Source: Marinomonas sp. SBI8L (lineage in GTDB: Bacteria; Pseudomonadota; Gammaproteobacteria; Pseudomonadales; Marinomonadaceae). Taken from it: a stretch of DNA of 64,000 nt. The translations under genes were made by a program, and so were the position numbers. The notes beneath the pieces were generated by a model, which worked only from the letters and a program-made list of their open reading frames with translations, ran no database searches and had not been told where the DNA came from. The stretch is taken from NCBI RefSeq assembly GCF_001624705.1, contig NZ_JSEO01000003.1:1-64000 (forward strand). Direction: 5' to 3'. Shown in pieces: positions 6,267-64,000 of the stretch. The number at the start of each line of letters is the position of its first letter. Within the stretch, counting starts at the first letter, position 1.

Positions 6267-6320
6267 CTATACATAGAAGTAGCTATACATAGCCTTTTGA
6301 TTCAATTCAGAAGGGATATT

Positions 6321-7905: not shown

Positions 7906-7932
7906 TCGGATTCAAGACGGATCAGGCAAACG

Positions 7933-7967: not shown

Positions 7968-7997
7968 ATTTTCTAATCATAGGCTACCTAATCAGGC

Positions 7998-8534
7998 CTA
8001 TTCATAAGGAGTGATGTTGGACCCTATGATGTGATAGCCAGTTTGTATCATGCCGACCATGTTTTGCTCTGTCATCAGCTTACCTTCTAGATAAATTACA
8101 TCCCATAGCTCTTGGTCTGGCGCACCTTGAGGGAAGCTGACATGGATAATCTGGTTCGGTGGTGGCGGTGGCGTGTGAATACAAGAACCGTAATAAGGCA
8201 CTAACAAGAATTCAGTGACCTCATCGGCATCGCCTTCAAGAGGAATCACAAAACCTGGGATTCTAACTTGCTTGCCACTGAGTTCGTGTCTTACTGCCCC
8301 AAACTCTGATTGCATATCAGCATCATAGGCCTCGTCACCATATTCAAGTTGCTGTGACATCATTTCTCTAGCGATACGTTCAGATTCAGGTACCAAATCC
8401 AGCCATTTAAGCTCTAATAGATTCGCTGTCGCATTGCTTGAAAAAACAAAAGAGGCTAACAATAGGCTGAGTGTCATTAAGGTAGAGTGAAGTCTGTTTT
8501 TCCCCACCTGGGTTAACGATAAGCGGTTTTTCAT
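7998..8534 (-). CDS. DUF3299 exported protein of zinc operon
   Basis: A 178-residue exported protein. A signal segment (about residues 18-43, ending SSNATA) precedes the mature part, which holds the DUF3299 hallmarks VRIPGFVIPLEGD and YYGSCIHTPPPPPNQIIHV. The function is unknown; such genes commonly sit beside MacB-type ABC and DUF2796 genes. I chose the ATG at 8534 (MKNRLS), right at the permease stop (8537), because an upstream start at 8630 would overlap the permease by 94 bases. Last gene of the Zur-box operon, so likely an envelope part of zinc uptake, like the last Zrg gene of Vibrio cholerae. Confidence 0.88.
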   Translation of the reverse strand: MKNRLSLTQVGKNRLHSTLMTLSLLLASFVFSSNATANLLELKWLDLVPESERIAREMMSQQLEYGDEAYDADMQSEFGAVRHELSGKQVRIPGFVIPLEGDADEVTEFLLVPYYGSCIHTPPPPPNQIIHVSFPQGAPDQELWDVIYLEGKLMTEQNMVGMIQTGYHIIGSNITPYE

Positions 8535-8536
8535 TA

Positions 8537-9796
8537 TTAAATCCTTATGGTCATGCCATCGCTTAACGATTGGCGGTAAGCTGAAATAGCAGGAATAATT
8601 CCGATTAGTAGTCCACTTAGCTGAATGCAAGCAACTAACATAAGTTCATACTGGGACGGCGCTGTGATATTAATCGCCAAGCCAAAGTTTTGCTGAATAA
8701 TAGGGCTAGCAATGGCTAGAATCAGATAAAGCAGGCCCATGCCAAGCATAATGCCAAGGCCACAGATAATGCCGGTTTCCACAACTAGTAAGCTAAAGAT
8801 ATGATGAGGCCTCGCTCCTAGTGCTCTTAGAATCGCCATTTCACGGCGGCGTTCATTTAAGCTGGTCAGTAGGCTAGCTAACATACCTAAGAAGCCAGCT
8901 ATCACAACAAAGACTGAGACAATTAATAGGGCTTGCTCAGCAACAGACATCAATGACCAAAGCTCGTGTAGGGCAATCCCTGGCACTATGGCGCTAAGGG
9001 GCTCTAGGCGATAGTCATTGACCTCTCTTTGTACATGAAAGGTGTGAATCTTAGATTTAAGACCCATTAAAAATGCAGTAATTTGTTTAGGTTCAAACTC
9101 TCTTGCTTCTAAGTTATCTGCGCTGGGAGCATGTCCTAAAAATGCACCAGACTCCCAACCCACATGTATCGCTTCGATAGCTTCAAGTGAGACATGAATG
9201 GTTTTATCAACAGGCGTTCCTGTAGGGGCAAGAATACCGATCACTTTGAAAGGCGCGTTATCATGCTTACTAAAGCCGATGTCTTTCATGCCGTGCGCTA
9301 GCACCATAGGGCTATCTAGTTCATAACCTAAGGTTTGTGCTACATCAGCACCAATAACGGCTTCGAAAAGCTGATCAAATTGTTTGCCTTGAGCAAAAAT
9401 CAGTGGCTGCTTTTTACCAAATTTATAATGTTTAAAATAATCCTGGTTAGTTCCTAAAACGCGGAAGCCCTGATGAGAGTCTCCTAATGAAAAAGGCACT
9501 GTCCACTTAACTGATTTATGATCTTTAAAGTCTTGATAGGTTTTCCAGTCAATATTATTGGTGGCATTACCAATACGGAATACAGAATAAAGCAGCAAAT
9601 TTATTTGACCTGAGCGAGCCCCAACAATAAGGTCTGTTCCAGAAATGGTGTTAGCAAAGCTGTTTTTCGCTTGGGTTCTGACTTGTTCCACGCCTAATAG
9701 TAATAACACCGAAATGGCGATGGTAAATAAGCTCAGCAGTACGGTTGCTTTACGGTTTAATAGACTGTTAATTGCGAGACGCAGGAGGTTTCTCAT
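8537..9796 (-). CDS. FtsX/MacB-type ABC permease of zinc operon
   Basis: A 419-residue permease with the MacB/FtsX layout: one membrane helix at residues 18-38, a large periplasmic domain, then three C-terminal helices near 285-310, 335-365 and 385-410. The conserved LNERRREMAILRALGARPHH follows the second helix. It overlaps the upstream ATPase gene by four bases (ATGA), so the two are translationally coupled. Type VII ABC proteins usually move periplasmic components mechanically instead of pumping small ions, so a direct zinc-pore role is not assumed. Resembles the permease of the V. cholerae zrg locus, by memory. Confidence 0.88.
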   Translation of the reverse strand: MRNLLRLAINSLLNRKATVLLSLFTIAISVLLLLGVEQVRTQAKNSFANTISGTDLIVGARSGQINLLLYSVFRIGNATNNIDWKTYQDFKDHKSVKWTVPFSLGDSHQGFRVLGTNQDYFKHYKFGKKQPLIFAQGKQFDQLFEAVIGADVAQTLGYELDSPMVLAHGMKDIGFSKHDNAPFKVIGILAPTGTPVDKTIHVSLEAIEAIHVGWESGAFLGHAPSADNLEAREFEPKQITAFLMGLKSKIHTFHVQREVNDYRLEPLSAIVPGIALHELWSLMSVAEQALLIVSVFVVIAGFLGMLASLLTSLNERRREMAILRALGARPHHIFSLLVVETGIICGLGIMLGMGLLYLILAIASPIIQQNFGLAINITAPSQYELMLVACIQLSGLLIGIIPAISAYRQSLSDGMTIRI

Positions 9797-10602
9797 ACCG
9801 TCTCTCCTTGCTGATTAAATTGAGCTTGCTCTAGTGGGTTTTGATTCAGCTTGGCAAGGTCGATGGTTTGTTCAAATAAAGGTTCTAAAGTTGGATCATG
9901 GCTAACGAAAATCAAAGTCGCCTGATTACGACTCACTTCTTGCATGAGCAGTTTTATAAATGCTTCACGGTTATCATGGTCTAATGCAGAGGTTGGCTCA
10001 TCGGCAATGACTAGCGCTGGGCTGCCCATTAGGGCTCTTGCTGCAGCGACTCTTTGTTGTTGGCCAATACTTAAGTGGCTGGCTTTTTTATCTTGAATTT
10101 CATCTGGTAAGTTCAGGGCCGTTAATAAACGCTTGGCTTCAATACGCACTGCGTCTTTGTGGTTAGCTCCTTCATCTAATACCTTTTGTTTTCTTTGCTT
10201 AGAGAATTCACAGGCAAGGCATACATTATCAATCACGCTTAAGTAGGGTAAGAGATTAAATTGCTGGAAAATATAGCCAATATTATCCGCTCTAAATTGA
10301 TCCCTTTGCCCCTGTTTTAGACGACAGATATCTGTTCCTAGCAGGTTAATACTACCTTGCTGAGGCGTGTTAATCGCCGTTAATAAACTCAGTAGGGTAG
10401 ATTTGCCTGAACCGCTTGGTCCCTTAACAAACAAATGCTGCTGAGCCTGAATCTTAAAGTCAGCAATATCTAATATGGCTTGTTTGGCTTTAGGCCAACT
10501 AAATTGAACCTTATTAAGTTCAACGGCAAAGGTCGCTTGGGTTGTCTGTGAAGGCTCAAGTGCCCCTATGTCTGTGTGATTTTGGCTTTGAAAATCTGTC
10601 AT
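9793..10602 (-). CDS. ABC transporter ATPase of zinc operon
   Basis: A 269-residue ATPase of the LolD/MacB class. It has Walker A GPSGSGKSTL (about 60-69), Q-loop FQQFNLLPYL, signature LSIGQQQRVAAARAL and Walker B LVIADEPTSALD. It pairs with the overlapping FtsX-type permease. The start at 10602 leaves a 61-base gap to the DUF2796 gene upstream, and all genes share one direction from the Zur box. The signature has I instead of the usual G (LSIGQ), which is tolerated in related proteins. Confidence 0.92.
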   Translation of the reverse strand: MTDFQSQNHTDIGALEPSQTTQATFAVELNKVQFSWPKAKQAILDIADFKIQAQQHLFVKGPSGSGKSTLLSLLTAINTPQQGSINLLGTDICRLKQGQRDQFRADNIGYIFQQFNLLPYLSVIDNVCLACEFSKQRKQKVLDEGANHKDAVRIEAKRLLTALNLPDEIQDKKASHLSIGQQQRVAAARALMGSPALVIADEPTSALDHDNREAFIKLLMQEVSRNQATLIFVSHDPTLEPLFEQTIDLAKLNQNPLEQAQFNQQGETV

Positions 10603-10663: not shown

Positions 10664-11440
10664 TTAAAAGTCTATGTGAGCGTGTTTTGCATCCAGCTCA
10701 AGCACTTTTTGGCTATTGTCTGTTAGCAAATTAACATGAATTTCTTGCGTATTAGGGAAGTGTTTGAACCAGTTAGTTTGAATCTCAGTTAGTTTTTCAA
10801 CATTGTGACATTCGTACTGGTAAGTGATTTCAAAAGCAGCGTGACTTTCTTCACCATGTTCGTCGTGATGATCTTCACCATGTTCATCGTGGTGGTCTTC
10901 GTCATGGTCGTCATGATGATCTTCACCATGTTCACCATGTTCACCATGTTCATCATGATGGTCGTCGTGATGATCTTCACCATGCTCATCGTGGTGGTCT
11001 TCGTCATGGTCGTCATGATGATCTTCACCGTGATCATCGTGGTGGTCTTTGCCATGGTCGTCATGATGCTCATCGTGATGGTCTTCATCATGCTCATCAT
11101 GGGCAGACAAGGATTGCTCAATCAAATGATCGCTTAACTGACATTGTGCGCCTTTATCAAAAATAAATAGGCTTGCAGGATTTTCTAAACGAGCAATAGC
11201 TTGTTTCAGGGCTTCTTTTTCTTGCGCCGTTTCTGGTGCATGTTCAAAGCCAACAATGTCGGCACCAGGTGCTGAAATCGCTAGGATAAGGTCTTCCCCA
11301 TCTTGTGCGATATTAAAGCTTACTTCCCCATGTACATGGGCTTTATGGTCACGTTTTTCTTCTTCGCCGTGGTGGTCAGCAATTGCGCCAGCAGAAACAC
11401 ATAGGCCTGCTAGTGCAGCCCATTTAGATTTAACAATCAT
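10664..11440 (-). CDS. zrgA: His-rich DUF2796 periplasmic zinc-binding protein, ZrgA-like
   Basis: A 258-residue protein with a signal peptide (residues 1-21, ending GAIA) and a HHGEEEKRDHKAHVHGEVSF start typical of DUF2796. Residues about 115-200 are a His/Asp/Glu tract made of repeats like HDEHGEDHHDDH, with dozens of histidines, clearly suited to binding metal. The C-terminal part (YQYECHNVEKLTEI onward) resumes the folded domain. It matches the architecture of V. cholerae ZrgA, a zinc-regulated protein needed for zinc uptake; the name is by resemblance. Together with the ABC genes downstream it forms the core of this operon. Confidence 0.88.
   Translation of the reverse strand: MIVKSKWAALAGLCVSAGAIADHHGEEEKRDHKAHVHGEVSFNIAQDGEDLILAISAPGADIVGFEHAPETAQEKEALKQAIARLENPASLFIFDKGAQCQLSDHLIEQSLSAHDEHDEDHHDEHHDDHGKDHHDDHGEDHHDDHDEDHHDEHGEDHHDDHHDEHGEHGEHGEDHHDDHDEDHHDEHGEDHHDEHGEESHAAFEITYQYECHNVEKLTEIQTNWFKHFPNTQEIHVNLLTDNSQKVLELDAKHAHIDF
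10855..11105. repeat. tandem repeats coding the His/Asp/Glu tract
   Basis: About 250 bases inside the DUF2796 gene are built from near-identical short units, e.g. ATGATCTTCACCATG and GTGGTCTTCGTCATGGTCGT repeated several times. The repetition is at the DNA level and not just the protein level, so the tract can expand or shrink by slippage or unequal recombination. Open frames on both strands here are by-products of this simple composition. Confidence 0.85.
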
Positions 11441-52138: not shown

Positions 52139-53053
52139 ATGCATAAACTTCCGCCTCGTGCACTTGAGTATCTTAATGCCATTGCACGATATAAAACCCT
52201 TAGAAAAGCAGCCGCTAGGCTGAATGTTAACCCGTCTGCCGTGAGTCGTTTACTCTCTCAATTGGAAGAGAGCTTATTGCTCCCTCTTTGGGATAGAACC
52301 AATAGCCGTAACCCTATTACCCCAGCTGGCGAAGAGTTGCTGCAATATTATCGAAAGATGTGTGCCAGTGAACAAGCCACCTTGTCCCGCTTAGATGACA
52401 TGCTTAATTTGCGTTCAGGCGAAGTGAGAATTGCTGTGGGCGAGGGAATCATAGGGGATCTAATCTCTTCTCCACTGCAATCCTTCTTAAAAAAGCATAA
52501 GGACATCCAGCTCACGGTGGAAATGGCTGGTGCACAAGATGCGGTTAGCTTACTCGAAGAAGAGCATATTGATTTCGCGTTAACCTATGCTTCTGCGAAT
52601 CACCCCAAATTACATTGCCATTTAGAAACTCAACATCCTTTAGAGTTAATCGTGCCACCAGGCCATGAACTGACTCAGCTAGCAGGCCCAGCTACCTTTA
52701 AGTCAGTGGTAAAATACCCCATTGCTTTGATAGATAAATCCACGGGAATGGGCCGTCTAGTCACACTGGCAGAAGAGTTGAACCACTTTAAATTAACACC
52801 TAGTTTACGGACTAACTCTGTTTCTGCCCTGAAAAATTATGTCATGTCTGGTCTTGGTATTTCCTTTATGCCAAGGCTAACGATTTGGGAAGAGATAGAG
52901 CAAGGCAAGATAGAGGTTGTGCCTATGGATAACCTTGTTTTTGCGAAAGCCAAGGTTTGCGTGCTGAGTTTAGAGGGTCGAGAGCTGACACTTGCTGCTC
53001 AAGCCTTGCTTGATCACTTGTCAGAAACGATGCGTTTTTTGTCTGATAACTAA
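52139..53053 (+). CDS. LysR family regulator of the TRAP operon
   Basis: A 304-residue LysR regulator: HTH KTLRKAAARLNVNPSAVSRL, linker LPLWDRTNSRNPITPAGEEL, effector domain with RIAVGEGIIGDLI and MSGLGISFMPRL. It lies upstream of the dctP gene on the same strand, 193 bases apart, so it may control the TRAP/dipeptidase operon and be partly cotranscribed. Confidence 0.88.
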   Translation: MHKLPPRALEYLNAIARYKTLRKAAARLNVNPSAVSRLLSQLEESLLLPLWDRTNSRNPITPAGEELLQYYRKMCASEQATLSRLDDMLNLRSGEVRIAVGEGIIGDLISSPLQSFLKKHKDIQLTVEMAGAQDAVSLLEEEHIDFALTYASANHPKLHCHLETQHPLELIVPPGHELTQLAGPATFKSVVKYPIALIDKSTGMGRLVTLAEELNHFKLTPSLRTNSVSALKNYVMSGLGISFMPRLTIWEEIEQGKIEVVPMDNLVFAKAKVCVLSLEGRELTLAAQALLDHLSETMRFLSDN

Positions 53054-53246
53054 TACCTAATGCCTAATACTAAAAATACTTTGTGCGCTGTCGCTTCTAA
53101 TTTTAGTTTTTGTGTGTTGCTTAAAATGCAACAGTTTGGGGCTTGTGGTGTCAACAGCTCAAGTTTAGTTTGTAAAAGGTGGGCTACAAAATGATCAAAA
53201 ATACACAGAAATATCAAACTGATAAAAATGCTTAGAGGAATCTAAA

Positions 53247-54281
53247 ATGACGATTATAAAAAAAGTGTTTGGTGCAACTAGCGTGTTCAAATCCCTAGCT
53301 TTAGGTGCCGCACTTTCGACCTTATCCCTTGCTGTGAATGCTCAAACAATCAATTTGAGTTACAACGGTGCGCCAGATGCGAATAAAAATGCGGTACACC
53401 TTTTTGCTCAAAACTTGAAAACCTTAGTGTCAGAAAAAACACAAGGTGAGTTAGAACTAAAACTATACCCTAACAGTATGTTAGGAAATGAAGAGCAGCG
53501 TATGGAGCAGGTGTTAAATATCCCTAGCTTAAATATTGCTTCTTTTGGTGGCATCTCACCTTTGTTCCCGGAGATTTTTGTCAGTGCGATTCCATTTATG
53601 TTCAGTGACTTTGATAAAGCACGCGAATTTTTTGATAAGGGTGAGTATTGGAAAGCGGTTGAAAAAGACTTTTATGCTCGTACAGGTGGACACCTTTTAG
53701 CAGTAGTAGAAGAGGGTGGATTACTGGCTTTTACTAATAACAAAAAACCAATTAAATCCCCTAAAGACTTTGATGGCTTAAGGTTCCGCGCTATGGATAA
53801 AAGCCAAGTTGCACTCTATAACTCATTTGGTGCATCCGGTACGCCGATTCCATGGACTGATGTTTATATGGGGCTAAAAATGGGAGTTGCTGATGGGCAA
53901 ATGAACCCACCTATGTACATCATTTTGGGTAGTTTATACGAAGTACAAAAATATCTAACGCTGGCTAACATTCAGTATTCTGATCAGTTCTTAGTCGGGA
54001 ATGATGAGCTGCTAAATAGTTTGTCTGCTTCTGAGAAAGCGGCTTTATTAGAGGCGGTAAAAGAAGCTAACGACATGAACCGTAAGTCAGTTGAAAGTAA
54101 GGTAAATGAACGTATTGCTTACCTAGAAGAAAAGGGCATGCAGGTTTACAGACCAACCGCCGCTGAGCTAGAAGCGTTTCGCCAAGTTGGCCAACCCTCT
54201 TACTTCCAGTGGTTGAAAGACGAGGGCATAGACCAGAAATGGGTTGATCTTGCTCTAAAAGATGTTGGTTTTAATCAGTAA
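53247..54281 (+). CDS. dctP: TRAP transporter periplasmic binding protein DctP
   Basis: A 344-residue exported binding protein: signal peptide to about residue 32 (VNAQ). The C4-dicarboxylate-type TRAP signatures are present: LKLYPNSMLGNEEQRMEQVL, KSPKDFDGLRFRAMDKSQVA with the carboxylate-binding Arg region, and GVADGQMNPPMYI. In TRAP systems a conserved Arg usually salt-bridges an organic acid. First gene of dctP-dctQ-dctM-vanX-like; the spacer to dctQ carries a UUCG hairpin that may favour excess binding protein. Confidence 0.9.
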   Translation: MTIIKKVFGATSVFKSLALGAALSTLSLAVNAQTINLSYNGAPDANKNAVHLFAQNLKTLVSEKTQGELELKLYPNSMLGNEEQRMEQVLNIPSLNIASFGGISPLFPEIFVSAIPFMFSDFDKAREFFDKGEYWKAVEKDFYARTGGHLLAVVEEGGLLAFTNNKKPIKSPKDFDGLRFRAMDKSQVALYNSFGASGTPIPWTDVYMGLKMGVADGQMNPPMYIILGSLYEVQKYLTLANIQYSDQFLVGNDELLNSLSASEKAALLEAVKEANDMNRKSVESKVNERIAYLEEKGMQVYRPTAAELEAFRQVGQPSYFQWLKDEGIDQKWVDLALKDVGFNQ

Positions 54282-54292
54282 TTTATTTGGTT

Positions 54293-54308
54293 AGGCGCTT
54301 CGGCGCCT
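54293..54308 (+). promoter_or_regulatory. UUCG-tetraloop hairpin between dctP and dctQ
   Basis: AGGCGC-TTCG-GCGCCT forms a perfect six-base stem with the very stable C(UUCG)G loop, 12 bases before the dctQ ATG with no long T-run. It could protect the 3' end of dctP mRNA or cut read-through, giving more binding protein than membrane subunits. Confidence 0.7.
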
Positions 54309-54319
54309 TTGAGGCTGTT

Positions 54320-54805
54320 ATGACCTTAGATATTATCCGATCAGGTATTTATCGCCTGTTAATGTCTTTATCCAAGACGATACTTGCTTTAAATGTGCTG
54401 CTGATACTCTACAGCGTGTTTACGCGTTATATTTTGAACTCTGCACCTATTTGGTCGGATGAACTTTCAAGGTACGCCATTATTGCCAGCGTCATGCTGA
54501 TTATGTCCTGTGCCTACGTGGACGCAAGACATATGAAGGTGTCCTTTCTGGAAGACATGGTCAATGATTTTACCCGCCGTTTGATTAAATATTATCAGTG
54601 GTTTGTGCTGTTATCGGTCGCTTTATTCTTTACCTTTATTAGCACTAAGTACTCTTTATCCATGGGGCGTTTCACCAGTATGGGGTTAGGCATCAGTAAA
54701 ACCTTGCCTCTTCTGAGTATGCCGATTGGTTTCGGCGCTTTATTTTTAATGGTGTTATTACAAGGACCTTTTCCAACTAAGAAAAAAGAGGATGAGGCAT
54801 GTTAA
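54320..54805 (+). CDS. dctQ: TRAP transporter small membrane subunit DctQ
   Basis: A 161-residue protein with four membrane helices. TRYILNSAPIWSDELSRYAII is the usual DctQ motif after helix 1. ATG at 54320 follows GAGG by 6 bases; an upstream in-frame start at 54287 would overlap the hairpin. Overlaps dctM by seven bases. Confidence 0.88.
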   Translation: MTLDIIRSGIYRLLMSLSKTILALNVLLILYSVFTRYILNSAPIWSDELSRYAIIASVMLIMSCAYVDARHMKVSFLEDMVNDFTRRLIKYYQWFVLLSVALFFTFISTKYSLSMGRFTSMGLGISKTLPLLSMPIGFGALFLMVLLQGPFPTKKKEDEAC

Positions 54806-56076
54806 GCGCCATTATTATTACCTTTTTAATTAATATATTGTTGGGTATCCCACTTTATATTTGCCTGATTCTAGCCTCGTTAGTTGGCTTTTATTTTATT
54901 GATTTCTCCCTTGCGTATCGCATGGTGCCACAGCAGTTCTTTGGCGGCATAGACTCTTTTGCGCTCATGGCGATCCCGCTCTTTATATTGGCGGGTAACC
55001 TGATGAACTCTTCAGGCTTAACTTCTCAGCTCATCCGCTTGGCTAATTCTTTGGTTGGGCATTTACGTGGCGGTCTAGGTTATGTGAATGTGGTTTCCAG
55101 TGTCTTCTTTGCTGGCGTAAATGGCTCAGCAGTGGCTGATACTTCTGCCTTAGGTTCTTTGTTAGTACCTGCCATGAAAAAAGAAGGTTATGCCACCAGT
55201 TATGCGGCAGGGTTAACCGCTGCTAGTTCCTTAATTGGGCCTATCATTCCGCCTAGTATTTTCATGATTCTCTATGCGTCACTAACCAATACATCCGTAG
55301 GGGATTTGTTTTTAGCGGGTGTGATTCCAGGCCTTTTGTTAGGCGGCGCCTTTATTGTGATGAACTATCTCTATGTGAGAAAGGTGGGTCTTAAAAGCCA
55401 AACAGATAGATCCAGTCTGAAAGGCGTCTTAATTGCGCTTTGGTATTCTGCCCCGGCTTTGCTCGCGCCTTTTATCATAGTTGCCAGTATTGTATTTGGG
55501 TTTGTGACACCGACGGAATCTGGTGCACTGATTGTGGCCTATGCGCTTTTGTTAGGTTTGCTAAATCGCAGTTTATCCTTGAAGAAACTGGGTGAGGCGA
55601 TTGCAGATACTGCGATTTTAACCGGCAGTATCTTTGTTATTATTGCGGCATCTTCTGTGGTGAGTTGGTTATTAGCCTATGCTCAGTTACCTTCAGAGTT
55701 AGCACTTTTATTAGCGCCCTTTAAAGAAAATCCCACCACAGTGTTGCTCATTATTAGCTTGATGACTTTCTTTATTGGCATGTTGATGGAAGAGGTTTCA
55801 GCACTCATGCTGCTGACACCTGTCTTCTTTCCTGTGGCAATTGCCTCGGGTATCGACCCTATCCATTTTGGTGTCGTGATAACCGTGAATATTACTATCG
55901 CCTTGATTACGCCACCTATGGGAGCCTGTGTTTTTGTGGCAGCAGCGGTCAGCAAACTGGATATTCTGGATATGTTTAAGAGTATTTGGCCCTTTGTGTT
56001 GGTGGCAATTTGCGCCCAAATTCTGGTGATATCTTTGCCTAGCTTAACCTTGTTCTTACCAGGTGTTTTTAACTGA
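54799..56076 (+). CDS. dctM: TRAP transporter large membrane subunit DctM
   Basis: A 425-residue protein with about 12 helices and the DctM hallmarks GGIDSFALMAIPLFILAGNL, NGSAVADTSALGSLLVPAMK, GPIIPPSIFMI and LITPPMG. Catalyses sodium-coupled uptake of the ligand delivered by DctP. The dipeptidase gene begins two bases after its stop, so the four genes form one operon. Confidence 0.93.
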   Translation: MLSAIIITFLINILLGIPLYICLILASLVGFYFIDFSLAYRMVPQQFFGGIDSFALMAIPLFILAGNLMNSSGLTSQLIRLANSLVGHLRGGLGYVNVVSSVFFAGVNGSAVADTSALGSLLVPAMKKEGYATSYAAGLTAASSLIGPIIPPSIFMILYASLTNTSVGDLFLAGVIPGLLLGGAFIVMNYLYVRKVGLKSQTDRSSLKGVLIALWYSAPALLAPFIIVASIVFGFVTPTESGALIVAYALLLGLLNRSLSLKKLGEAIADTAILTGSIFVIIAASSVVSWLLAYAQLPSELALLLAPFKENPTTVLLIISLMTFFIGMLMEEVSALMLLTPVFFPVAIASGIDPIHFGVVITVNITIALITPPMGACVFVAAAVSKLDILDMFKSIWPFVLVAICAQILVISLPSLTLFLPGVFN

Positions 56077-56077
56077 T

Positions 56078-56830
56078 ATGAAGCATTTAATAGAGACGCC
56101 AATCCCGAGTACTTCAGAGTTTTCTTGGGAGTTTTATAAAGAGATTCCGATACGTGATATGGGAGAAGATCTAATTCCCTTAAGCACATCGGATCGACTC
56201 GTGACTTATCCTTTTTACGCAAAAATGGGCATAGCCACCGCCATGCCAGAATGCTTTGTGCGAGAAGGCGTATTTGAAAAGTTGCATCAGGCAACCAAAC
56301 TTATTCCATCGAACATCAAAATAGTGGTGCTAGATGGCTGGCGTCCTTATTCAGTACAACAGTACTTGTATGACACCCTGATTAATATTTTGAAGAAGAG
56401 TTTCCCAGATCACCCTGAAAGCCATTTGCATGAAAAAGCAAAGCGGCTGGTTTCACCGCCCAGTGCAGATGTTAAATCGCCTAGTCCACATCTTACGGGA
56501 GGCTCAGTAGATGTGACTCTATGTGATGAAATGGGGCGCTTTTTAGAGATGGGCACTCACTTTGATGAGGCCAATGAACGCTCTTGGACTGATGCCCTTG
56601 AAACTGAAAAAAGTGATAAAAGCAGGGCAAAAGAAAATCGACGTATCCTTTATCACGCCATGTTAGAGGTGGGGTTTACTAACCTGCCTAGTGAATGGTG
56701 GCATTATGATTTTGGTAATCAATTATGGGCCTATCGAACAGGCAAAGATGAAGCTCTCTATGGATCAACTCGCCCAAGGGACATTATTAAACAATGGGAA
56801 AGCGAGATAGTAGAGAACAAGTTTATTTAA
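56078..56830 (+). CDS. VanX-like D,D-dipeptidase (peptidase M15D) coupled to TRAP operon
   Basis: A 250-residue zinc peptidase of the VanX/DdpX family. Zinc ligands and catalysis are clear: His138 and Asp145 in SPHLTGGSVDVTL, Glu206 and His209 in SEWWHYDFGNQLW, plus Arg89 in DGWRPYS. VanX-type enzymes split D-Ala-D-Ala. No signal peptide, so it acts in the cytoplasm. The start two bases after dctM suggests it processes an imported dipeptide, perhaps from peptidoglycan. No vancomycin-resistance genes are near. A strong terminator follows at 56869. Confidence 0.9.
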   Translation: MKHLIETPIPSTSEFSWEFYKEIPIRDMGEDLIPLSTSDRLVTYPFYAKMGIATAMPECFVREGVFEKLHQATKLIPSNIKIVVLDGWRPYSVQQYLYDTLINILKKSFPDHPESHLHEKAKRLVSPPSADVKSPSPHLTGGSVDVTLCDEMGRFLEMGTHFDEANERSWTDALETEKSDKSRAKENRRILYHAMLEVGFTNLPSEWWHYDFGNQLWAYRTGKDEALYGSTRPRDIIKQWESEIVENKFI

Positions 56831-56868
56831 ATTTAGGTTAAGCATCCTAATGAATTTCCGTTAGGTTT

Positions 56869-56907
56869 ACGCCACGCTTTTTTACCCAAAAGCGTGGCGT
56901 TTTTTTA
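56869..56907 (+). terminator. terminator after dipeptidase gene
   Basis: The perfect hairpin ACGCCACGCTTTT / AAAAGCGTGGCGT is followed by TTTTTTT. It cleanly separates the TRAP operon from the amidohydrolase operon at 57.1 kb. Confidence 0.93.
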
Positions 56908-57110
56908 ATACCTAATTAGCCTCCTCAAAACGTATTTCATCAGATTTACGATGCGCTGTAATTTGCTGTAATACTGTATTTCAAAGTCCCTTCTATATTT
57001 ATGTGTCCGGTTAATTTGAGTCATAACCTCAATTAATTAGATTCCCTTCTTAGTAATCAGAACATGAAACAGTCAATTTAATAATTAGATACATAAAACA
57101 AGGACCGACT

Positions 57111-57929
57111 ATGTGCACTATTGGTGTTGTGTTTGAAGGTAAAAAAATCAATACATTTAAGCAATGCGATCTAATACCTATTACAGAGTTTAATGAGCCT
57201 GATGTTCGACAAGGTATAAATGGCGTGACCCATTACACCGCTATGACAAGGCAGGGGAGTGATGGTATTTGGGCTGGGGTTAATGATGCTGGAGTGGCAT
57301 TTGTTGCTGCTGATTCATATACCACCACAGCGGCTAACTATGCAGCGAGTAGTGAAGATGTTGAAGCTTTATTTGCTGCTTATGAAACGAGTATTAGAAG
57401 TTATACTAACGCTGAAGAAGCTGCAAATAGTCTTGCAGACTTTTATCGAACAATGGGGAAATCAAAGCCTTTTCCTGCGCCTGATATTTCTTTAATTACA
57501 GGTTGGACTGATGCTGAAAAAACACAGCCTGTCGCGATATTTATTGAATACATGCCAAATCCATTTAACCAAGAGTCTGTACGAATTATCCGCCGTACAG
57601 AAGGGCATTTTGTATCTACCAATAATTTTAGGTTACAGCCTGATTCCGTGAACTATCCTGCCAATCACAGTACTTACTTGCGCCTACAAAGAGCTGAGTT
57701 ACTACTGCAATTAGAGCCAAATCACGATGGAATAAAGGCCATGTTATGTGATCAGTATTATGGCAAAAATGAACTTTCCATCTGCCGAGAAACAGCCTAT
57801 CCCGGAATAGAGTTTCATACCCAAGCAAGTGCGTTATTTAGTGCAGATGTGAATGATGAAGTGGTATCTGAGTATCAAATTAACGGCAACCCTAAAACTA
57901 ATCCGCTAGTTGTTTTTACAGGGAGTTAA
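57111..57929 (+). CDS. Ntn-type cysteine hydrolase (penicillin acylase/C45-like), first gene of amidohydrolase operon
   Basis: A 272-residue protein starting MCTIGVVFEG, so Cys2 becomes the N-terminal nucleophile after Met removal. The family pattern is kept: an FKQCD segment in place of the usual F-x-N-R-D, DGIWAGVNDAGVAFVAADSY, and EGHFVSTNNFRL with the oxyanion Asn. Relatives cut amide bonds in acyl-amino compounds or transfer acyl groups. No signal peptide. First of four genes spaced 2, -ve and 62 bases apart, all on one strand. Substrate unknown. Confidence 0.78.
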   Translation: MCTIGVVFEGKKINTFKQCDLIPITEFNEPDVRQGINGVTHYTAMTRQGSDGIWAGVNDAGVAFVAADSYTTTAANYAASSEDVEALFAAYETSIRSYTNAEEAANSLADFYRTMGKSKPFPAPDISLITGWTDAEKTQPVAIFIEYMPNPFNQESVRIIRRTEGHFVSTNNFRLQPDSVNYPANHSTYLRLQRAELLLQLEPNHDGIKAMLCDQYYGKNELSICRETAYPGIEFHTQASALFSADVNDEVVSEYQINGNPKTNPLVVFTGS

Positions 57930-57931
57930 AC

Positions 57932-58831
57932 ATGGAAAATATTAAACTAAGTTATGATTTTAATGATAATTCTGCTATCGAACCGCCACAATTAGGCTTC
58001 CATTATGTAGACCAAGGAAACTATCAAACCTTGCCATTAGTCTCTGGCCAACCTTTAACAATTTATTCTGATAGTGCGACCTCTTGTATTATAACTTTAG
58101 TGCTTTCGCAAAAGGGGGAGGAAAGTTTTATCTCCTTGGCGCACCTAGATAGTCCTAGTTGTATTCAGGCCTTTTTTGACATTATTGCGGCGATGGATGC
58201 TGACACTTATCAAGTCACTGCCCAAGGCGCCAACCCCGCAGATAATGACACTTCAAAAGAAAATGCAGAGCAGCTTTTAGCCTGTATTGATACTTTAGGT
58301 TCTAAGGTAATCAGTAGTGAGTTATCGATTTTACAAGGAGACCCAAGAGTCGATAATCGTGGTGACTTTGGACTAAGTTTTGATGGGGATCAAATTGCGT
58401 TAGCAACAAATCAGCCGTATAAATTGCAGCTATTTCAACGGGATCCAAGCTGTGGTGGGCAAACCGTGTATTGCATTATGCGTAGGCAAGAACAACCCCC
58501 AATTCAGATACGAAATGCCAGCTTACCTTTTACCCATGCTGAGTTGGTTGAGCTAGCTTCCATTGCTATTCAGTTTAGAAAAGATCCATCTGATCCTAAC
58601 TCAGCATTTACCAATATTGTGAACCTTGAAAGTGACGAAATCCGCCAAGCTTGGTCAACCACTCCTGAATATGAAGCGCCTTGGTTCTCCGACCAATTAA
58701 AATTAGGCGCTGCTTTTGCCATTGCTATGGCACCTGTCGTGAGCTTAAGTGAGCTCCATTTGAATAAGTCGACACCGCCAAGTTTTAGCAGGCTCAAATC
58801 TGCTGTGTTATCTCAACCTATCAAGGAGTGA
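57932..58831 (+). CDS. putative cysteine amidase with CheD/NTAN1-like motif
   Basis: A 299-residue protein I cannot place firmly. Near the N-terminus DSATSCIITLVLSQ and SFISLAHLDSP put Cys52, His71 and Asp73 in the spacing seen in N-terminal Asn amidohydrolase (NTAN1: TTC...LTHCD) and in chemoreceptor deamidase CheD (GSC...LAH). That would make it a thiol amidase. The remainder is acidic without known motif. It starts two bases after the Ntn gene and overlaps the region before the asparaginase start, so the three are cotranslated. The family link is a motif-level inference. Confidence 0.55.
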   Translation: MENIKLSYDFNDNSAIEPPQLGFHYVDQGNYQTLPLVSGQPLTIYSDSATSCIITLVLSQKGEESFISLAHLDSPSCIQAFFDIIAAMDADTYQVTAQGANPADNDTSKENAEQLLACIDTLGSKVISSELSILQGDPRVDNRGDFGLSFDGDQIALATNQPYKLQLFQRDPSCGGQTVYCIMRRQEQPPIQIRNASLPFTHAELVELASIAIQFRKDPSDPNSAFTNIVNLESDEIRQAWSTTPEYEAPWFSDQLKLGAAFAIAMAPVVSLSELHLNKSTPPSFSRLKSAVLSQPIKE

Positions 58832-58836
58832 AGCGT

Positions 58837-60426
58837 ATGAAGATTGCAGTGATAAATACTGGTGGCACTATTAGTTGTATTGGTAACCCTTTAGCGCCTA
58901 TGACAGCAGAGAGTTTTGCGGCCGCTAGTGAAACCTTATTGAACCCTATCTTAAAGCAGGCTTTTCCTGATTTAGAGATAAGTTATCTGTGTAATATCGA
59001 GTTTCCAGAATCCTCTAGTAAAACGTTAGATAGCACTAATTTACAGCCAAGTGACTGGTGCATTATGGCTAAAGGCGTATTAGATAATTATCAAGAATTT
59101 GATGGTTTTCTTATCTTACATGGCACGGACAGCATGGATTTTACAGGGGGCGCTTTACCCTTCTTACTGAATGGGTTTGACGAAAAAGGGATAGGCACAG
59201 CGGTGTTAAGTAAGCCTGTTATTATTACCGGTTCTCAAGTGCCGCTATATTATCAAGATGATGCACAAGCACCACTAACGCTTAATTTTAATACTGACGC
59301 TTTTCAAAATATGTGTGGTGCTATGGCTTCGGCACGAACAGGTGTGCCAGAAGTGTGTGTGTATTTTCAAAATCACCTTTACCGTGGCAATCGTGCAATT
59401 AAAGTAAACGCCAGTGAATTTGATGCTTTTGCAACACCAAACTACCCTGCGTTGGCTGAATTTGGGGTGGAATTAAGCCTCTTTAGCGAACATTGGTTAC
59501 CTGGTCCTGTACATGATTCGGTAAGCCTAGATAATGCAAATGTCTTAGAAAAACAGCAGACGAATCTTGCTCAAATTAATACTAATATTGATCAATTCCC
59601 TGTGGCTCAACTCAATGCTTTTCCTGCTCACTACTCTCAGACAACAGGCACTGCTTTCATGGCAGAAATCATAAATACCATGGTGAATGCGGGAGCTAAA
59701 GGTTTAGTGCTTGAGTCTTACGGGGAAGGTAACTTCCCATCTGGTAATCCTGACTCTCCTTCAGATGGTGCCATTTATCAGGCCTTAAATAGTGCGAATA
59801 CACAGGGGGTTAATATTATTGATTGTACCCAGGTGATTAGCGGCACGGTGAATAATAGTGCTTATGCATCGGGTGCTTGGTTGCCTCAAGTCGGCGCGTT
59901 GAATCCAGCGGATATGACTCCCATGACAGCACTCGCTAAGTTAACAATTCTTGCTAGCTTGAGTGAGATAGATGGTTGGGATAGAGCTAATCTACAGACA
60001 CTTTGCCAAAGTAACTTAGTCGGTGAAATGGCAAGTATTAACAACCTTGATAGTCGAACAAACTCAAGGCTCATGCCCGGTCAGGCTATTCATTCCCTCG
60101 ATGGCAGTGTAAGCCTAATCAATGATCAAGCTTTAGGGCCGAGGTTAATGGTGGTAAGTAGTGAGCAACTTCTATGGCAGCTTCCTGTCGCGCTTCAAAG
60201 TTCAGATATGCCTGGGCTTCTCGTGATGCAAGATGATGGCAACTTGGTCTTTTATAGTCGTACTAATCAAGCATTATGGGCAAGTAATACTAATAACCCT
60301 GCTGGGGCGTCTTCAAAATTCTTTCTCAATGGTTCCTATAAAAGTGCCAATGAAAACTCAATAAGTCTTCAGATTTATAATTATTCTGCCAATGTGACTA
60401 GCGCTTTTCTCTATCGTGCTGAGTAA
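58837..60426 (+). CDS. asparaginase fused to C-terminal B-lectin domain
   Basis: A 529-residue fusion. Residues 1-about 400 are a type I-like asparaginase: nucleophile Thr11 in NTGGTIS, Thr97-Asp98 in LHGTDSMDFT, ITGSQVPL, and YRGNRAIKVNASEFDAF. The last ~115 residues are a bulb-type (mannose-binding) lectin domain with the classic QDDGNLVFY pattern in LVMQDDGNLVFYSRTNQALW, though only one clear repeat. No signal peptide. ATG at 58837 follows AGGAG by 8 bases; a GTG at 58828 is the alternative. Likely hydrolyses Asn or a related amide; the lectin part may target a sugar. Confidence 0.85.
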   Translation: MKIAVINTGGTISCIGNPLAPMTAESFAAASETLLNPILKQAFPDLEISYLCNIEFPESSSKTLDSTNLQPSDWCIMAKGVLDNYQEFDGFLILHGTDSMDFTGGALPFLLNGFDEKGIGTAVLSKPVIITGSQVPLYYQDDAQAPLTLNFNTDAFQNMCGAMASARTGVPEVCVYFQNHLYRGNRAIKVNASEFDAFATPNYPALAEFGVELSLFSEHWLPGPVHDSVSLDNANVLEKQQTNLAQINTNIDQFPVAQLNAFPAHYSQTTGTAFMAEIINTMVNAGAKGLVLESYGEGNFPSGNPDSPSDGAIYQALNSANTQGVNIIDCTQVISGTVNNSAYASGAWLPQVGALNPADMTPMTALAKLTILASLSEIDGWDRANLQTLCQSNLVGEMASINNLDSRTNSRLMPGQAIHSLDGSVSLINDQALGPRLMVVSSEQLLWQLPVALQSSDMPGLLVMQDDGNLVFYSRTNQALWASNTNNPAGASSKFFLNGSYKSANENSISLQIYNYSANVTSAFLYRAE

Positions 60427-60488
60427 AAAGAACACTTTAATTTTTATTGATTAAGGTGAATAACTAGGATGTTAATAAGGAAATATTT

Positions 60489-61298
60489 ATGTCATCAAAT
60501 TCAAGACAGTTTAAGTTAAGTGGTGTGATTGCGTCCCATGATCAATTTCATCAGGAAACCCATGCTCTTATGTTAGGTGCGACGCCTGATGAGCATTATA
60601 TCGCGCCTAAAGTAATATCTGTGGATATCAGTGTACCTGTCTCTAAAACGATTGGTGTTCCTCAATATTCAGATACTGTTTATGGGGAGGCCGCTGGGCA
60701 ATATGATCCTGCCGGTGATTGTCAGGGCAACTTCATGTCTAGTAAGTTTCAACCGAATAATAATTGTTATGCTTATGGTTGTAATATCACGCCTAATACC
60801 TTTCCTCAACCGGGGCGTCAGAGTGGTTACTTGCTAGTGGCAGAGGACTTTAAAAAACCGTTTGATGCGTTAGGTGAGCAAGTCAGTAGCTATGCTATAA
60901 AAGATGGTTTGCAATTGGCAGGTAGAACATTCGAAGAGCTGATGGCGTTTAAGTCGAGTCAGCAAGGCACCAATCCTAAAGGCTTAGGAGCTGGCTATCT
61001 TGCTGGGCATTTTGTTGCTTTGATGGTTTCCACTGCTGGGGATGCAAACTGGCCGGGAGATTATCATTGGGCTCGTTGTGATAACTCTGCAGGGGCTTGT
61101 GATTCATGGTCGCAAAAAGATGGCTCAGATCAAGTTACTAACTTTGACTTTGCAGGTAACGCGATTACAAACCCTATGACAGCAAATTGGTCTGTAAACC
61201 AAGGGCCTGTCTCAAGTTCGGATAACAGAGAGATGCTTGTTAGCTATGATTTTTACTGTTTTATGTTTGTGCCAGAAGCAGGCGTAAAAATTATTTAA
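60489..61298 (+). CDS. putative papain-like Cys/His hydrolase, last gene of amidohydrolase operon
   Basis: A 269-residue soluble protein. Residues NNNCYAYGCNI (Cys93) and QPGR, then GHFVALMVS (His174) and DYHWARCDN (His193) with WSQKDGSDQVTNFDFAGNAI, look like the Cys and His halves of a papain/CHAP-like active site, a layout I recall from uncharacterised bacterial proteins. Further Cys may form disulfides. AAGGAAATATTT precedes ATG. It ends the operon before a strong terminator. Enzyme class is inferred; substrate unknown. Confidence 0.55.
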   Translation: MSSNSRQFKLSGVIASHDQFHQETHALMLGATPDEHYIAPKVISVDISVPVSKTIGVPQYSDTVYGEAAGQYDPAGDCQGNFMSSKFQPNNNCYAYGCNITPNTFPQPGRQSGYLLVAEDFKKPFDALGEQVSSYAIKDGLQLAGRTFEELMAFKSSQQGTNPKGLGAGYLAGHFVALMVSTAGDANWPGDYHWARCDNSAGACDSWSQKDGSDQVTNFDFAGNAITNPMTANWSVNQGPVSSSDNREMLVSYDFYCFMFVPEAGVKII

Positions 61299-61324
61299 TC
61301 CTGCCATCTAAAGTGTATTGACCT

Positions 61325-61360
61325 AAAAGGCTCTGATCTGATGGAACAGAGCCTTTTTTA
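61325..61360 (+). terminator. terminator after amidohydrolase operon
   Basis: The hairpin AAAAGGCTCTG / CAGAGCCTTTT is followed by TTTTTATAG, 27 bases after the stop at 61298; the QorB-like gene converges from the other side. Confidence 0.9.
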
Positions 61361-61377
61361 TAGACTTGCTTGCCTCT

Positions 61378-62238
61378 TTACTTGCTTGCTAATGCTGCTT
61401 TAATCGAATGCTGAATCATGGTGGTTGGACGGGCAATTAGCTGACTTAGAGTGTGGCTATCGTCGAACAAAGCACCTTCTAGCATTAGCGCATCAGAGTC
61501 TGCCAATACCGCTGCAAAGCCTTCAGGTAAACCAATTTCTACTAACATAGCGGTATATTCCGCTTCGCTTAAACCTTGATAAACAATGGCTTGGCCTGTC
61601 TGCTTAGCTATCTCAGCGGCGTAGTCTGCTTGGGTAAAGGCTTGATCACCTGCTAGTTCATACACCTTGCCAATATGAGCTTGAGAGTTGGTGAGTACAA
61701 CGGCAGCCGCTTCGGCATAATCAAGGCGAGCAGCAGGGGTTATTTTCCCTTCACCACCGGCACCCACAACGGCTTTGTGTTCTAGTACCGCTGCAATGTT
61801 GCCTGTGTAGTTCTCGTTGTACCAGCCATTACGCAGTACAGTAGCTGGGATACCTGAGTCTTTAATCGCTTGCTCTGTGACCTTGTGCTCTTGCGCTAGA
61901 ATCATTTTTGATGTGTCTGCTTTTAGCAAGCTGGTGTAAGCAAGAAAGCTCACCTTCGCTTCTTTCGCTGCATCAATAACCGCTTGGTGTTGCGGCGCTC
62001 TTTGGCCTACTTCACTGCCAGAAATCAATAATAGCTTGTCCACACCTTGTAACGCAGTTGCTAGCGTATCAGCTTGGTTATAATCTGCTTTACGCACCTG
62101 AATCCCTTGCGCTTTAAGTGCCTCTGCTTTTTCTGGGCTACGTACTAATGCAATAACCTGATCCGCAGAAACGCGCTTAAGTAGTTCAGCAATAACCAAT
62201 TGGCCTAGTTGTCCGTTTGCACCTGTTACAGCAATCAT
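61378..62238 (-). CDS. qorB: NmrA-like NAD(P)-binding reductase, QorB-like
   Basis: A 286-residue atypical short-chain reductase. Nucleotide-binding TGANGQLGQLV starts at residue 4; VDKLLLISGSEVGQRAPQHQ, STSLLKADTSK-like AYTSLLKADTSKM, TVLRNGWYNENYT and ARLDYAEAAAVVL match E. coli QorB (quinone oxidoreductase 2). It likely reduces quinones with NADPH. Divergent from a LysR regulator (start 62369), a common arrangement for this family, with the operator presumably in the 130-base gap. Confidence 0.88.
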   Translation of the reverse strand: MIAVTGANGQLGQLVIAELLKRVSADQVIALVRSPEKAEALKAQGIQVRKADYNQADTLATALQGVDKLLLISGSEVGQRAPQHQAVIDAAKEAKVSFLAYTSLLKADTSKMILAQEHKVTEQAIKDSGIPATVLRNGWYNENYTGNIAAVLEHKAVVGAGGEGKITPAARLDYAEAAAVVLTNSQAHIGKVYELAGDQAFTQADYAAEIAKQTGQAIVYQGLSEAEYTAMLVEIGLPEGFAAVLADSDALMLEGALFDDSHTLSQLIARPTTMIQHSIKAALASK

Positions 62239-62368
62239 AATTTTCTCCTAAATATTTTATTTAAAGTGTTAAGGCTGATGCTTTGGGCTCGCCCTAGTAA
62301 TGCAACAAAGTATGGGGAATAATGATTGTGTCGAATAGATGGTTAAAACTTAATGGAGTGTTCGGATT

Positions 62369-63265
62369 TTGAGTACAATTGATTTTTCACATCTTAAGCA
62401 TATGGCGATCTTTGTCGCAGTCGTAGAAGCAGGCAGCTTTGCTGCAGCCGCTCGTAAGCTTCATTCCAGCCGATCTAGAGTGAGCGAACAGGTTGCTCAG
62501 TTTGAAGCCGCTGCTGGTATGCGCTTATTACATAGGTCAACACGCCAACTGGCTTTAACCTCAGAAGGGGAAAAGGTGTATGCCAAGGCGAAAATCTTGC
62601 CCGGGCTTATTCATGAGATAGAAGCCGTTGCGTCCCCCGCTGAACCAAGCGGCCGCGTGGCGATTAGTACTACCCATGATATTGCGATTAAGCATCTGAT
62701 TCCTGTGTTGAGTGAATTTCAGCGACGCTACCCTAAAGTACAAGTTGATCTGATTATTTCGGATCAGAAGATGGACCTTATCGCCGAACAAATCGACATG
62801 GCGATACGCATCGGCTTGCCGAATGACGATTCCTTGATTGGCCGTGTTATGTATGAAGAACGCTCTACTTTATACGCTAGCCCTGCTTATCTTAAAGAGC
62901 ATGGCATGCCTAAAAGCATAGAAGAGCTTGCTCAACATAAATGGATATCCTTGACCCAAATGAGCCAAAACGGCGAGCAAAACTTACAACATGAAGAGCA
63001 GCATTATCACTTCACCCCAAGCCATTATCATCAAACTAACTCTCCCTTAGTTGCCCAAAGCATGACGCTGGCTGGTTATGGTATAGGGGTACATTTACCT
63101 CTGACGGTGAAGGATGAATGTAAGGCGGGGCTACTTGTACCGATCGGATTGGGGATGAGTGCTTTTAGTGCTGTGTTTACTTTGGTTTATCCGTCCCGCA
63201 AGCAGGTACCAGCAAGAACTAGAGCTTTAATTGATTATCTACTATCCTCTGATATCTTCTCTTAA
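62369..63265 (+). CDS. LysR family regulator of the QorB-like gene
   Basis: A 298-residue LysR protein. HTH AGSFAAAARKLHSSRSRVSE, linker MRLLHRSTRQLALTSEGEKV, effector domain with RVAISTTHDIAIKHLI and AQSMTLAGYGIGVHLPLT. It is close to the group that controls divergent NADPH reductases. ATG was not found at the exact start; 62369 is TTG (TTGAGTACAATTGAT), preceded by GGAGTGTTCGG, so a TTG start is likely. Confidence 0.85.
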   Translation: MSTIDFSHLKHMAIFVAVVEAGSFAAAARKLHSSRSRVSEQVAQFEAAAGMRLLHRSTRQLALTSEGEKVYAKAKILPGLIHEIEAVASPAEPSGRVAISTTHDIAIKHLIPVLSEFQRRYPKVQVDLIISDQKMDLIAEQIDMAIRIGLPNDDSLIGRVMYEERSTLYASPAYLKEHGMPKSIEELAQHKWISLTQMSQNGEQNLQHEEQHYHFTPSHYHQTNSPLVAQSMTLAGYGIGVHLPLTVKDECKAGLLVPIGLGMSAFSAVFTLVYPSRKQVPARTRALIDYLLSSDIFS

Positions 63266-63302
63266 AAGCTGCTGTGCTTGATTATGTTTTGTTAAAAAGC
63301 AA

Positions 63303-63602
63303 CTCAAAATGCTCACTTATCACGATAAGCTCCGCTTTTTCGTTTACTTTTTGCCTCACCTAATCTTCGCTCGCGACGCTTTTTGGTGGCATTAAGATAG
63401 TTGTACTTAAATTGAAGGAGAGCTGCTGCGCTCGGCTTTCTGTTAGCAATGACTTTGTTTTGGATTGCTTTGAGGTTATTCCTTGGTGAAGGCTTTTGCT
63501 TTTTTGATTCTAAGGAGCCTTTAAAAACGAACTGAGCGAAGGTCAGACAAGGCAAGCTGTGACGAAAAATGTGAGCTTATAGTTATAAGTGAGCATTTTG
63601 AG
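63303..63602. repeat. 300-bp element bounded by long inverted repeats
   Basis: CTCAAAATGCTCACTTAT at 63303 is exactly inverted at 63585-63602, and a further eight bases ATAAGCTC / GAGCTTAT (63325 and 63573) pair after a four-base gap, giving 26 paired positions. The enclosed 240 bases include a Lys/Arg-rich open frame (63313-63555, minus strand, 80 residues) of doubtful value. It looks like a miniature mobile or repetitive element. Confidence 0.6.
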
Positions 63603-63712
63603 AAGCAGCTTAACGAAGTATGGCCGATGATCAGGCGTTTTATCCTCCAAGGTGAGCATTTTGAGGAAAAGTTTAACGCAGCATGATCGATGATCAGGCG
63701 TTTTAGCCCCTA
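63589..63712. repeat. two tandem copies of a 63-bp unit
   Basis: Unit 1 begins GTGAGCATTTTGAG at 63589 and unit 2 the same at 63652. Both continue with AACG.AG.ATG..CGATGATCAGGCGTTTTA, with several differences. The unit overlaps the right arm of the inverted repeat and ends at the stop codon of the LuxR-type gene. Confidence 0.65.
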
Positions 63713-64000
63713 ATGAGAGTCAAGCTCGTTCAAATGTGCGAGGAAGAGAGTAAAGATCTCCGACTGTGTCGAGGTATCGAGTCGAGTATGTATATTCTTC
63801 CTATGTACCTTAACTGTGCCTAAACTAATATTTAGTTGGTTAGCGATCACTTTCGATGAATGACCTTGTAATATAAGACCTGATATCTCTTGTTCCCGTT
63901 TTGTGAGTATGCCTCGGCCAAAGCTGCTGAGGGCTTGTTTCATAACGCTGTCGGACTTTTCGTACTGCACATATTCATGGGATTGCGATAACCAGAATTG
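63710..64000 (-). CDS. LuxR-type HTH regulator, 3' part (runs off right edge)
   Basis: The frame ends at 63710 and stays open to the window edge, so the N-terminal part is missing. The visible end is a LuxR DNA-binding domain: GILTKREQEISGLILQGHSS, VIANQLNISLGTVKVHRKNI and HTRLDTSTQSEIF. The upstream domain (autoinducer, receiver or other) lies outside the window, so no function can be given. A GTG at 63970 could start a short version but the open frame beyond it favours a longer gene. Confidence 0.85.
   Translation of the reverse strand, partial: QFWLSQSHEYVQYEKSDSVMKQALSSFGRGILTKREQEISGLILQGHSSKVIANQLNISLGTVKVHRKNIHTRLDTSTQSEIFTLFLAHLNELDSH

Follow-up and report, generated by a model that had tools for sequence, protein, structure and literature searches.

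The 64,000-nucleotide (nt) stretch of the Marinomonas sp. SBI8L genome analysed here (contig NZ_JSEO01000003.1, positions 1 to 64,000; hereafter, the window) carries an operon of four genes, P1 to P4, the products of which represent mostly known families in a new, recurring combination, together with one family without known relatives. P1 resembles N-terminal nucleophile (Ntn) hydrolases, P2 is by sequence a homologue of NTAN1, the eukaryotic N-terminal Asn amidohydrolase, P3 is an asparaginase with a C-terminal lectin tail, and P4 is the family without known relatives. We tentatively favour the view that the four genes form a self-contained cassette, spread horizontally, the cytosolic amide hydrolases of which dismantle one Asn-bearing compound. 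No paper on this cassette or combination was found in the open-licence part of PubMed Central. An earlier reading of the same DNA, made from the sequence only (the sequence-only reading), had described a tight four-gene operon closed by a terminator, and this description holds: all four open reading frames (ORFs) are open, lie on the same strand with short gaps and are followed by a hairpin with a T run (Table 1).

The cassette recurs elsewhere. When genome contigs were scanned once with a P2 alignment of two rows, 23 loci were obtained (short conserved peptides were used and the list is not a census); together with the window and one plasmid from Vibrio, these make up the 25 P2 loci in which the four proteins were searched by tblastn. 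It had been set out beforehand that failure to find the four genes together elsewhere would count against the sequence-only reading; instead, they are adjacent at 13 of the 25 loci (the window, L006, L008 to L015, L018, L020, and L022), although in L013 P1 is split between two frames and in L015 P3 matches by its C-terminal half alone. The Vibrio plasmid p1ST2 carries all four genes, ordered as in the window, with P1 to P4 being 65%, 64%, 56%, and 42% to 49% identical, respectively, to their window counterparts. Complete sets occur in gamma- and alphaproteobacteria and in Desulfoluna, and are arranged in four orders (P1-P2-P3-P4, P3-P4-P1-P2, P2-P1-P3-P4, and P4-P3-P1-P2), so that the adjacency is not mere inherited synteny. 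At least one partner lies beside P2 at 22 of the 25 loci. The recurring four-gene set is thus more than chance.

The link between P2 and NTAN1, proposed in the sequence-only reading, was confirmed by both profile comparison and residue mapping. P2 passes the Pfam model N_Asn_amidohyd (PF14736; E value of 4.4e-8), and a 25-row P2 profile matches human NTAN1 (6a0e) at an E value of 4.5e-10, with profile positions 13 to 259 of 265 aligned. Functional residues of NTAN1, as given in PMC7022378, were placed on P2 through the profile alignment; they comprise the catalytic Cys75, His92, and Ser69 and the residues recognizing the N-terminal Asn, Gln51, Thr73, Thr74, Ser254, Thr255, and Glu260. P2 residues Q28, T50, C52, H71, S242, and E248 correspond to NTAN1 Gln51, Thr73, Cys75, His92, Ser254, and Glu260, respectively, and are present in all 25 P2 members, in which the position of NTAN1 Phe264 is kept as well. 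The position of Ser69 (S46 in P2) is occupied by Ser in 23 members and Cys in 2, that of Thr255 by Thr or Ser (12 and 13 members, respectively), and those of Thr74 and Asp71 by Ser throughout. The 299-column P2 alignment has 27 invariant columns, and these include 7 of the 9 functional positions (hypergeometric 7e-7, with columns not independent and Ser at Thr74 counted as invariant). By sequence, then, P2 is a true NTAN1 homologue, which matches it over nearly the full length of the profile and keeps the catalytic Cys/His/Ser and Asn-binding positions, but differs from it in the Thr74 and Asp71 replacements and in the placement of its gene among amide hydrolases; distant prokaryotic members are only 28% to 33% identical to P2. 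The AlphaFold2 model of P2 has a predicted local distance difference test (pLDDT) score of 91.5 (the structure alignments were made without the L006 and L007 rows). Because Glu248 and the Ser/Thr set are retained, the sequence argues for Asn with a free alpha-amine as the P2 substrate; the exact specificity of the enzyme we infer from sequence. NTAN1 is reported in PMC7022378 to be without prokaryotic sequence relatives, and the existing Pfam model matches P2, meaning that the family link was already detectable. A eukaryotic N-degron enzyme is hereby linked to a family in prokaryotes that shares its active site and sits in a gene neighbourhood that recurs.

Since P2 keeps the residues with which NTAN1 recognizes N-terminal Asn, the cassette might provide an entry to a bacterial N-degron route, in which N-terminal Asn would be converted to Asp and a leucyl-transferase would then mark the protein for degradation. 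ATE_C (PF04377) marks the bacterial Asp/Glu leucyl-transferase, and it was matched in 11 of the 19 cassette genomes searched. It was unmatched in the Marinomonas sp. SBI8L genome itself and in the 7 others (the control search was positive in 1 of 14 known genomes), and it is because no transferase of this type was found in the own genome that we disfavour an N-degron role, which would furthermore leave P1, P3, and P4 unexplained and which we regard as highly improbable.

P1 matches the NCBIfam C45_proenzyme model with an E value of 1.9e-8 and 34.1 of 85 bits, that is, under the curated cut-off, whereas the Pfam AAT model (PF03417) is matched at E <= 0.1 by 14 of the 19 members of the P1 family (best E value of 2.8e-7), the P1 of the window not being among them. 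In all 19 members, Cys2, Asp20, Asn58, Asn171, and Arg226 are invariant, a set which we take to fit the residues of bile-salt hydrolases and penicillin V acylases (the two-frame P1 of L013 was excluded from the alignment). The Cys2 codon occupies positions 57114 to 57116, and the residue would become N-terminal upon removal of the initiator Met. Hence, P1 resembles the C45/AAT Ntn hydrolases, such as isopenicillin-N acyltransferase and carcinine hydrolase, in its weak family matches and in the invariant Cys2, Asn, and Arg, but unlike them begins straight at Met-Cys and is therefore without a propeptide. Of the earlier assignment as an Ntn hydrolase with N-terminal Cys, the conserved nucleophile set stood, whereas the score remained below the family cut-off.

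The assignment of P3 as an asparaginase with a lectin domain was borne out by sequence. P3 passes both asparaginase domain models, PF00710 (E value of 1.1e-35) and PF17763 (1.3e-17), its best profile match being Escherichia coli asparaginase I (2p2d; 5e-80), and Thr14, Thr100, Asp101, and Lys192 are invariant in the 15 aligned sequences, from which the half-matched P3 of L015 was excluded. The tail remains under the cut-off in Pfam (E value of 0.14) but matches lectins of the Galanthus nivalis agglutinin (GNA) type in PDB with E values down to 2.2e-14; it is also the only part of the cassette proteins with a PHROG match. The mannose-binding motif QxDxNxVxY (QDDGNLVFY in P3) is whole in 12 of the 14 tailed P3 rows, with Tyr replaced by Arg in the other 2. 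The tail suggests that the substrate of the cassette carries a sugar or has one nearby. Through this motif and its local sequence, it resembles GNA/bulb-lectin domains and the lectin-like bacteriocins putidacin L1 and pyocin L1, but unlike those it is the tail of an enzyme without a visible signal peptide. Compared with the type I cytoplasmic asparaginase AnsA (2p2d), with which it shares both domains and the Thr, Thr-Asp, and Lys residues, P3 has additional loops, the lectin tail and, at residue 24, Pro instead of the Tyr of the loop, a replacement found in 14 of the 15 cassette asparaginases. The plain asparaginase of Methanosarcina retains this Tyr, and the second asparaginase of the own genome has Tyr in the same loop. 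We rejected the loss of the loop Tyr as proof of inactivity, because the active-site Tyr of type I asparaginases is said, in PMC12951835, to derive from the other subunit. Given that the own genome encodes this separate, ordinary asparaginase (G000:C5), P3 probably has a special job rather than being the sole asparaginase.

For P4, searches of Pfam, NCBIfam, PHROGs, PADLOC, and PDB sequences gave no convincing match. Cys93, His174, Asp191, and His193 are invariant in all 17 family members. The AlphaFold2 model of P4 is of low confidence (pLDDT 60.7), with residues 42 to 111, including the Cys, scoring below 50; in it, His174 opens one strand and Asp191 the next. NTAQ1 has the triad Cys28/His81/Asp97, according to PMC4214742. 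P4 may be compared to NTAQ1 and papain-like Cys-His-Asp amidases in having a Cys, a His where a modelled strand begins and an Asp 17 residues later, but differs from them in lacking any sequence match, the likeness being drawn from the residue arrangement in the low-confidence model; we thus consider the assignment of P4 as a putative papain-like or NTAQ1-like Cys/His enzyme a lead, not proof. No member of the NTAQ1-type family Nt_Gln_amidase (PF09764) was detected in 299 genomes or in 14 controls. In Colwellia psychrerythraea, a tandem pair of P4 genes lies beside P3 and P2 (L021, positions 6305 to 8049), and a Rhizobium plasmid (L007, positions 9566 to 10396) encodes a protein distantly related to P4 but differing in its N-terminal part, approximately 2 kb before the gene for a protein of approximately 3,100 amino acids.

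In agreement with the sequence-only reading, which had noted no signal peptide in any of the four proteins, none of P1 to P4 matches one control gene in the strength of an N-terminal hydrophobic stretch, as judged by hydropathy only, with P3 coming nearest; all four would accordingly be cytosolic. This bears on the possibility that the cassette encodes protein-modifying effectors, namely, deamidases and a lectin-bearing enzyme acting on foreign proteins in antagonism or host manipulation. The P3 tail does resemble lectin-like bacteriocins, and the CNF1/YfiH-like fold of NTAN1 is, according to PMC7022378, also that of bacterial deamidases. However, apart from the lack of a visible signal peptide, no defence or toxin family was matched beyond a chance-level hit to Ntox24 in one P4 relative (E value of 0.2), and the P1 and P2 pair is carried by anaerobes and a methanogen, making effectors a very unlikely explanation. 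A known anti-phage defence function was rejected as well, with no PADLOC match at E <= 1 for any of the four proteins.

Comparison with relatives indicates how the cassette came to lie in the window. Positions 52386 to 56907 of the window align with positions 13001 to 8480 of L068, from the relative G036, at 95.3% identity, and positions 61394 to 64000 align with 8451 to 5818 at 86.1%. In G036, in which the M15 gene upstream of the cassette is 97% identical, the two flanks are approximately 30 bases apart, and because they are contiguous without the cassette, the latter is an insertion of approximately 4.5 kb; its loss from all relatives is less likely. Transposon borders were rejected, as no terminal repeats of at least 14 bases were seen around the insert. 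P2 and P4 gave no match in any of the 48 further genomes from this genus, including one that is 77% complete, and in a sample of 397 other genomes of the phylum, 1 had P2 and 2 had P4, a short match with an internal stop among the latter. A search with the single P1 sequence in 368 other genomes of the class returned one weak, chance-like match. The GC content of the cassette (41.6%) falls inside the range of the window (35.9% to 43.8%), and composition was therefore rejected as a mark of foreign origin. A phage or viral origin was also rejected: no relative of P1, P2, or P4 was confirmed in viral contigs, and P2 and P4 were absent from the phage records searched.

Such a sporadic, mobile distribution, which includes a plasmid, could also be expected of a detoxification or self-protection system destroying, inside the cell, a peptide antibiotic that contains Asn or a prodrug of the N-acyl-Asn type, and both the lack of a signal peptide by hydropathy and that of a precursor gene in the cassette speak for this. 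Against it, the 20 flanking proteins scanned revealed no biosynthetic cluster apart from two radical S-adenosylmethionine (SAM) genes, and recognition of the NTAN1 type needs, according to PMC7022378, a free alpha-amine, which is absent in N-acyl-Asn. We consider detoxification unlikely.

Under the favoured explanation of one dismantled Asn-bearing compound, the substrate is most likely a short peptide, a glycopeptide, or an acyl-Asn conjugate. P2 would bind an N-terminal Asn by its free alpha-amine and convert this Asn to Asp and ammonia, P1 would cut the acyl or peptide-type amide next to that Asn, P3 would hydrolyse the side-chain amide of Asn, possibly of glycosylated Asn held by the lectin tail, and P4, as a Cys/His enzyme, would trim or open the substrate; the glyco part of the substrate and the reaction of P4 are speculative. 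That the four genes serve one pathway, the part of the overall earlier interpretation that gained support, is well supported by gene neighbourhood, and from the neighbourhood alone all four proteins would act on one substrate. A bolder version, which we hold to be unlikely, is that of an undescribed mobile prokaryotic pathway for Asn-linked (glyco)peptides, with NTAN1 deamidating N-terminal Asn, the lectin-tailed asparaginase taking mannosylated Asn amides, and P4 founding a new Cys/His amidase family. If this were true, the counterpart of eukaryotic NTAN1 in prokaryotes would serve metabolism instead of protein degradation. The cassette offers enzymologists four co-expressible genes for finding a substrate, and possibly a clue to roles of NTAN1-type enzymes beyond protein degradation.

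Several observations weigh against a shared pathway of four proteins. P2 is without a partner at 3 loci (L019, L024, and L028), two of them at contig ends; P2-P1 occurs without P3 and P4 in 2 Propionispira and in one metagenome-assembled genome (MAG) each of Lachnospiraceae and Fibrobacter; and P1 was not found, in a search without a positive control, in the two Colwellia genomes, in which the order is P4-P4-P3-P2 or P4-P3-P2. Plasmids of the V. coralliilyticus type keep P1 without P2 to P4. Among the plasmids with P1, p1ST2 and 3 of the other 8 were viewed: at L049 (8001 to 8822) and L051 (6001 to 6822), P1 occupies the site of the cassette and a methyl-accepting chemotaxis protein stands in the place of P2 to P4, and in OCN008 (L050, 6001 to 6600) the P1 match stops early, at about residue 196. 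In favour of a shared pathway, the pairwise divergences of P1 to P4 correlate across loci (Spearman 0.48 to 0.87, reached by 0 to 11 of 999 label permutations, L007 not included), although this correlation does not separate co-function from joint transfer. Further points against it are that the fold of P4 is modelled with low confidence and that the loci contain no constant transporter, glycosidase, or regulator pointing to a substrate.

Some of these patterns would fit two independent two-gene modules, P1 with P2 and P3 with P4, each with its own substrate, co-travelling as a mobile passenger cassette without a shared pathway. Such modules are suggested by the P2 and P1 pairs of Firmicutes and Fibrobacter and by Stappia and the MAG nzgw583, in which P3 and P4 lie on other contigs than P2. 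P4 was matched in 6 of 13 genomes searched, including Stappia, nzgw583, and a Nitrospirae MAG (partial, E value of 4.8e-19); in none of these three is it beside P2, and in the former two it adjoins a lectin-asparaginase. Yet Stappia, with P1-P2 and P3/P4 on separate contigs, holds both halves in one genome, and Colwellia and nzgw583 pair P2 with P3 and P4, with no P1 found (in nzgw583, too, the search lacked a positive control), so that the border between the modules is not clean. Methanosarcina, for its part, has P3-P2-P1 with a plain asparaginase. We view two separate modules as a rather doubtful alternative to the single-pathway cassette.

Table 1. Features of the cassette and its borders, with positions in the window
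Feature	Position	Strand	Description or basis
Upstream-gene terminator	56869..56905	+	Fold and consensus scan; found also in a relative without the cassette
Segment missing from relative G036	56908..61393		Alignment of both flanks
P1 gene	57111..57929	+	Open ORF; C45/AAT-like Ntn hydrolase
P2 gene	57932..58831	+	Open ORF; prokaryotic NTAN1 homologue (by sequence)
P2 Cys52	58085..58087
P2 His71	58142..58144
P2 Glu248	58673..58675
P3 gene	58837..60426 (alternative GTG start 58828)	+	Open ORF; asparaginase of class 1 (type I-like) ending in a lectin tail
P3 lectin motif QxDxNxVxY (QDDGNLVFY)	60229..60255	+	In P3 tail
P4 gene	60489..61298	+	Open ORF; candidate papain-like Cys93/His174/Asp191
P4 Cys93	60765..60767
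P4 His174	61008..61010
P4 Asp191	61059..61061
Intrinsic terminator of the cassette	61325..61362 (approximate)	+	Inverted repeat 61325-61338/61344-61357, T run, fold prediction

The gaps between P1 and P2 and between P3 and P4 are 2 and 62 nt, respectively. If P3 started at the GTG codon, it would overlap P2 by 4 nt; with the ATG codon, 5 nt separate the two genes. The ATG is most likely the start of P3, because it is preceded by AAGGAG and because the Vibrio gene, as annotated, and the majority of tblastn matches start there. The upstream-gene terminator sets the cassette apart from the preceding genes, and no promoter-like site was found between positions 56905 and 57111, just 5' of P1, in the consensus scan. 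The terminator scan of the window, which listed 6 terminator-like sites against 4.1 expected, missed the hairpin behind P4, probably because of its interior mismatch.

No constant flanking gene family was found around the loci among the 20 flanking proteins scanned against Pfam, and a shared flanking partner was rejected, since the clusters found near up to 5 loci were, by eye, common regulators and ABC proteins. Directly 5' of the insertion, the window contains TRAP transporter genes (identified by eye) followed by a gene for an M15-type D-Ala-D-Ala dipeptidase-like protein (53247 to 56830), which are kept together in all 3 relatives compared. TRAP-type transporter genes, likewise identified by eye, also lie near the P4/P3 pair of Stappia, with an aldehyde-dehydrogenase-like gene in between (L041, 4323 to 9938), but the transporter of the window occurs without the cassette, too. 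In the Lachnospiraceae MAG (L027, 9887 to 12501), P2-P1 is followed by genes for a 185-amino-acid protein and a radical SAM/SPASM protein, an arrangement known from peptide-modification clusters. Beside the cassette of Pseudoalteromonas denitrificans, the minus strand encodes a collagen-repeat protein with a carbohydrate-binding module (L018, 14084 to 16516). Elsewhere in the window, a minus-strand gene (10664 to 11440) beside ABC transporter genes recognized by eye encodes a possibly metal-binding protein with a long stretch of His/Asp/Glu-rich repeats.

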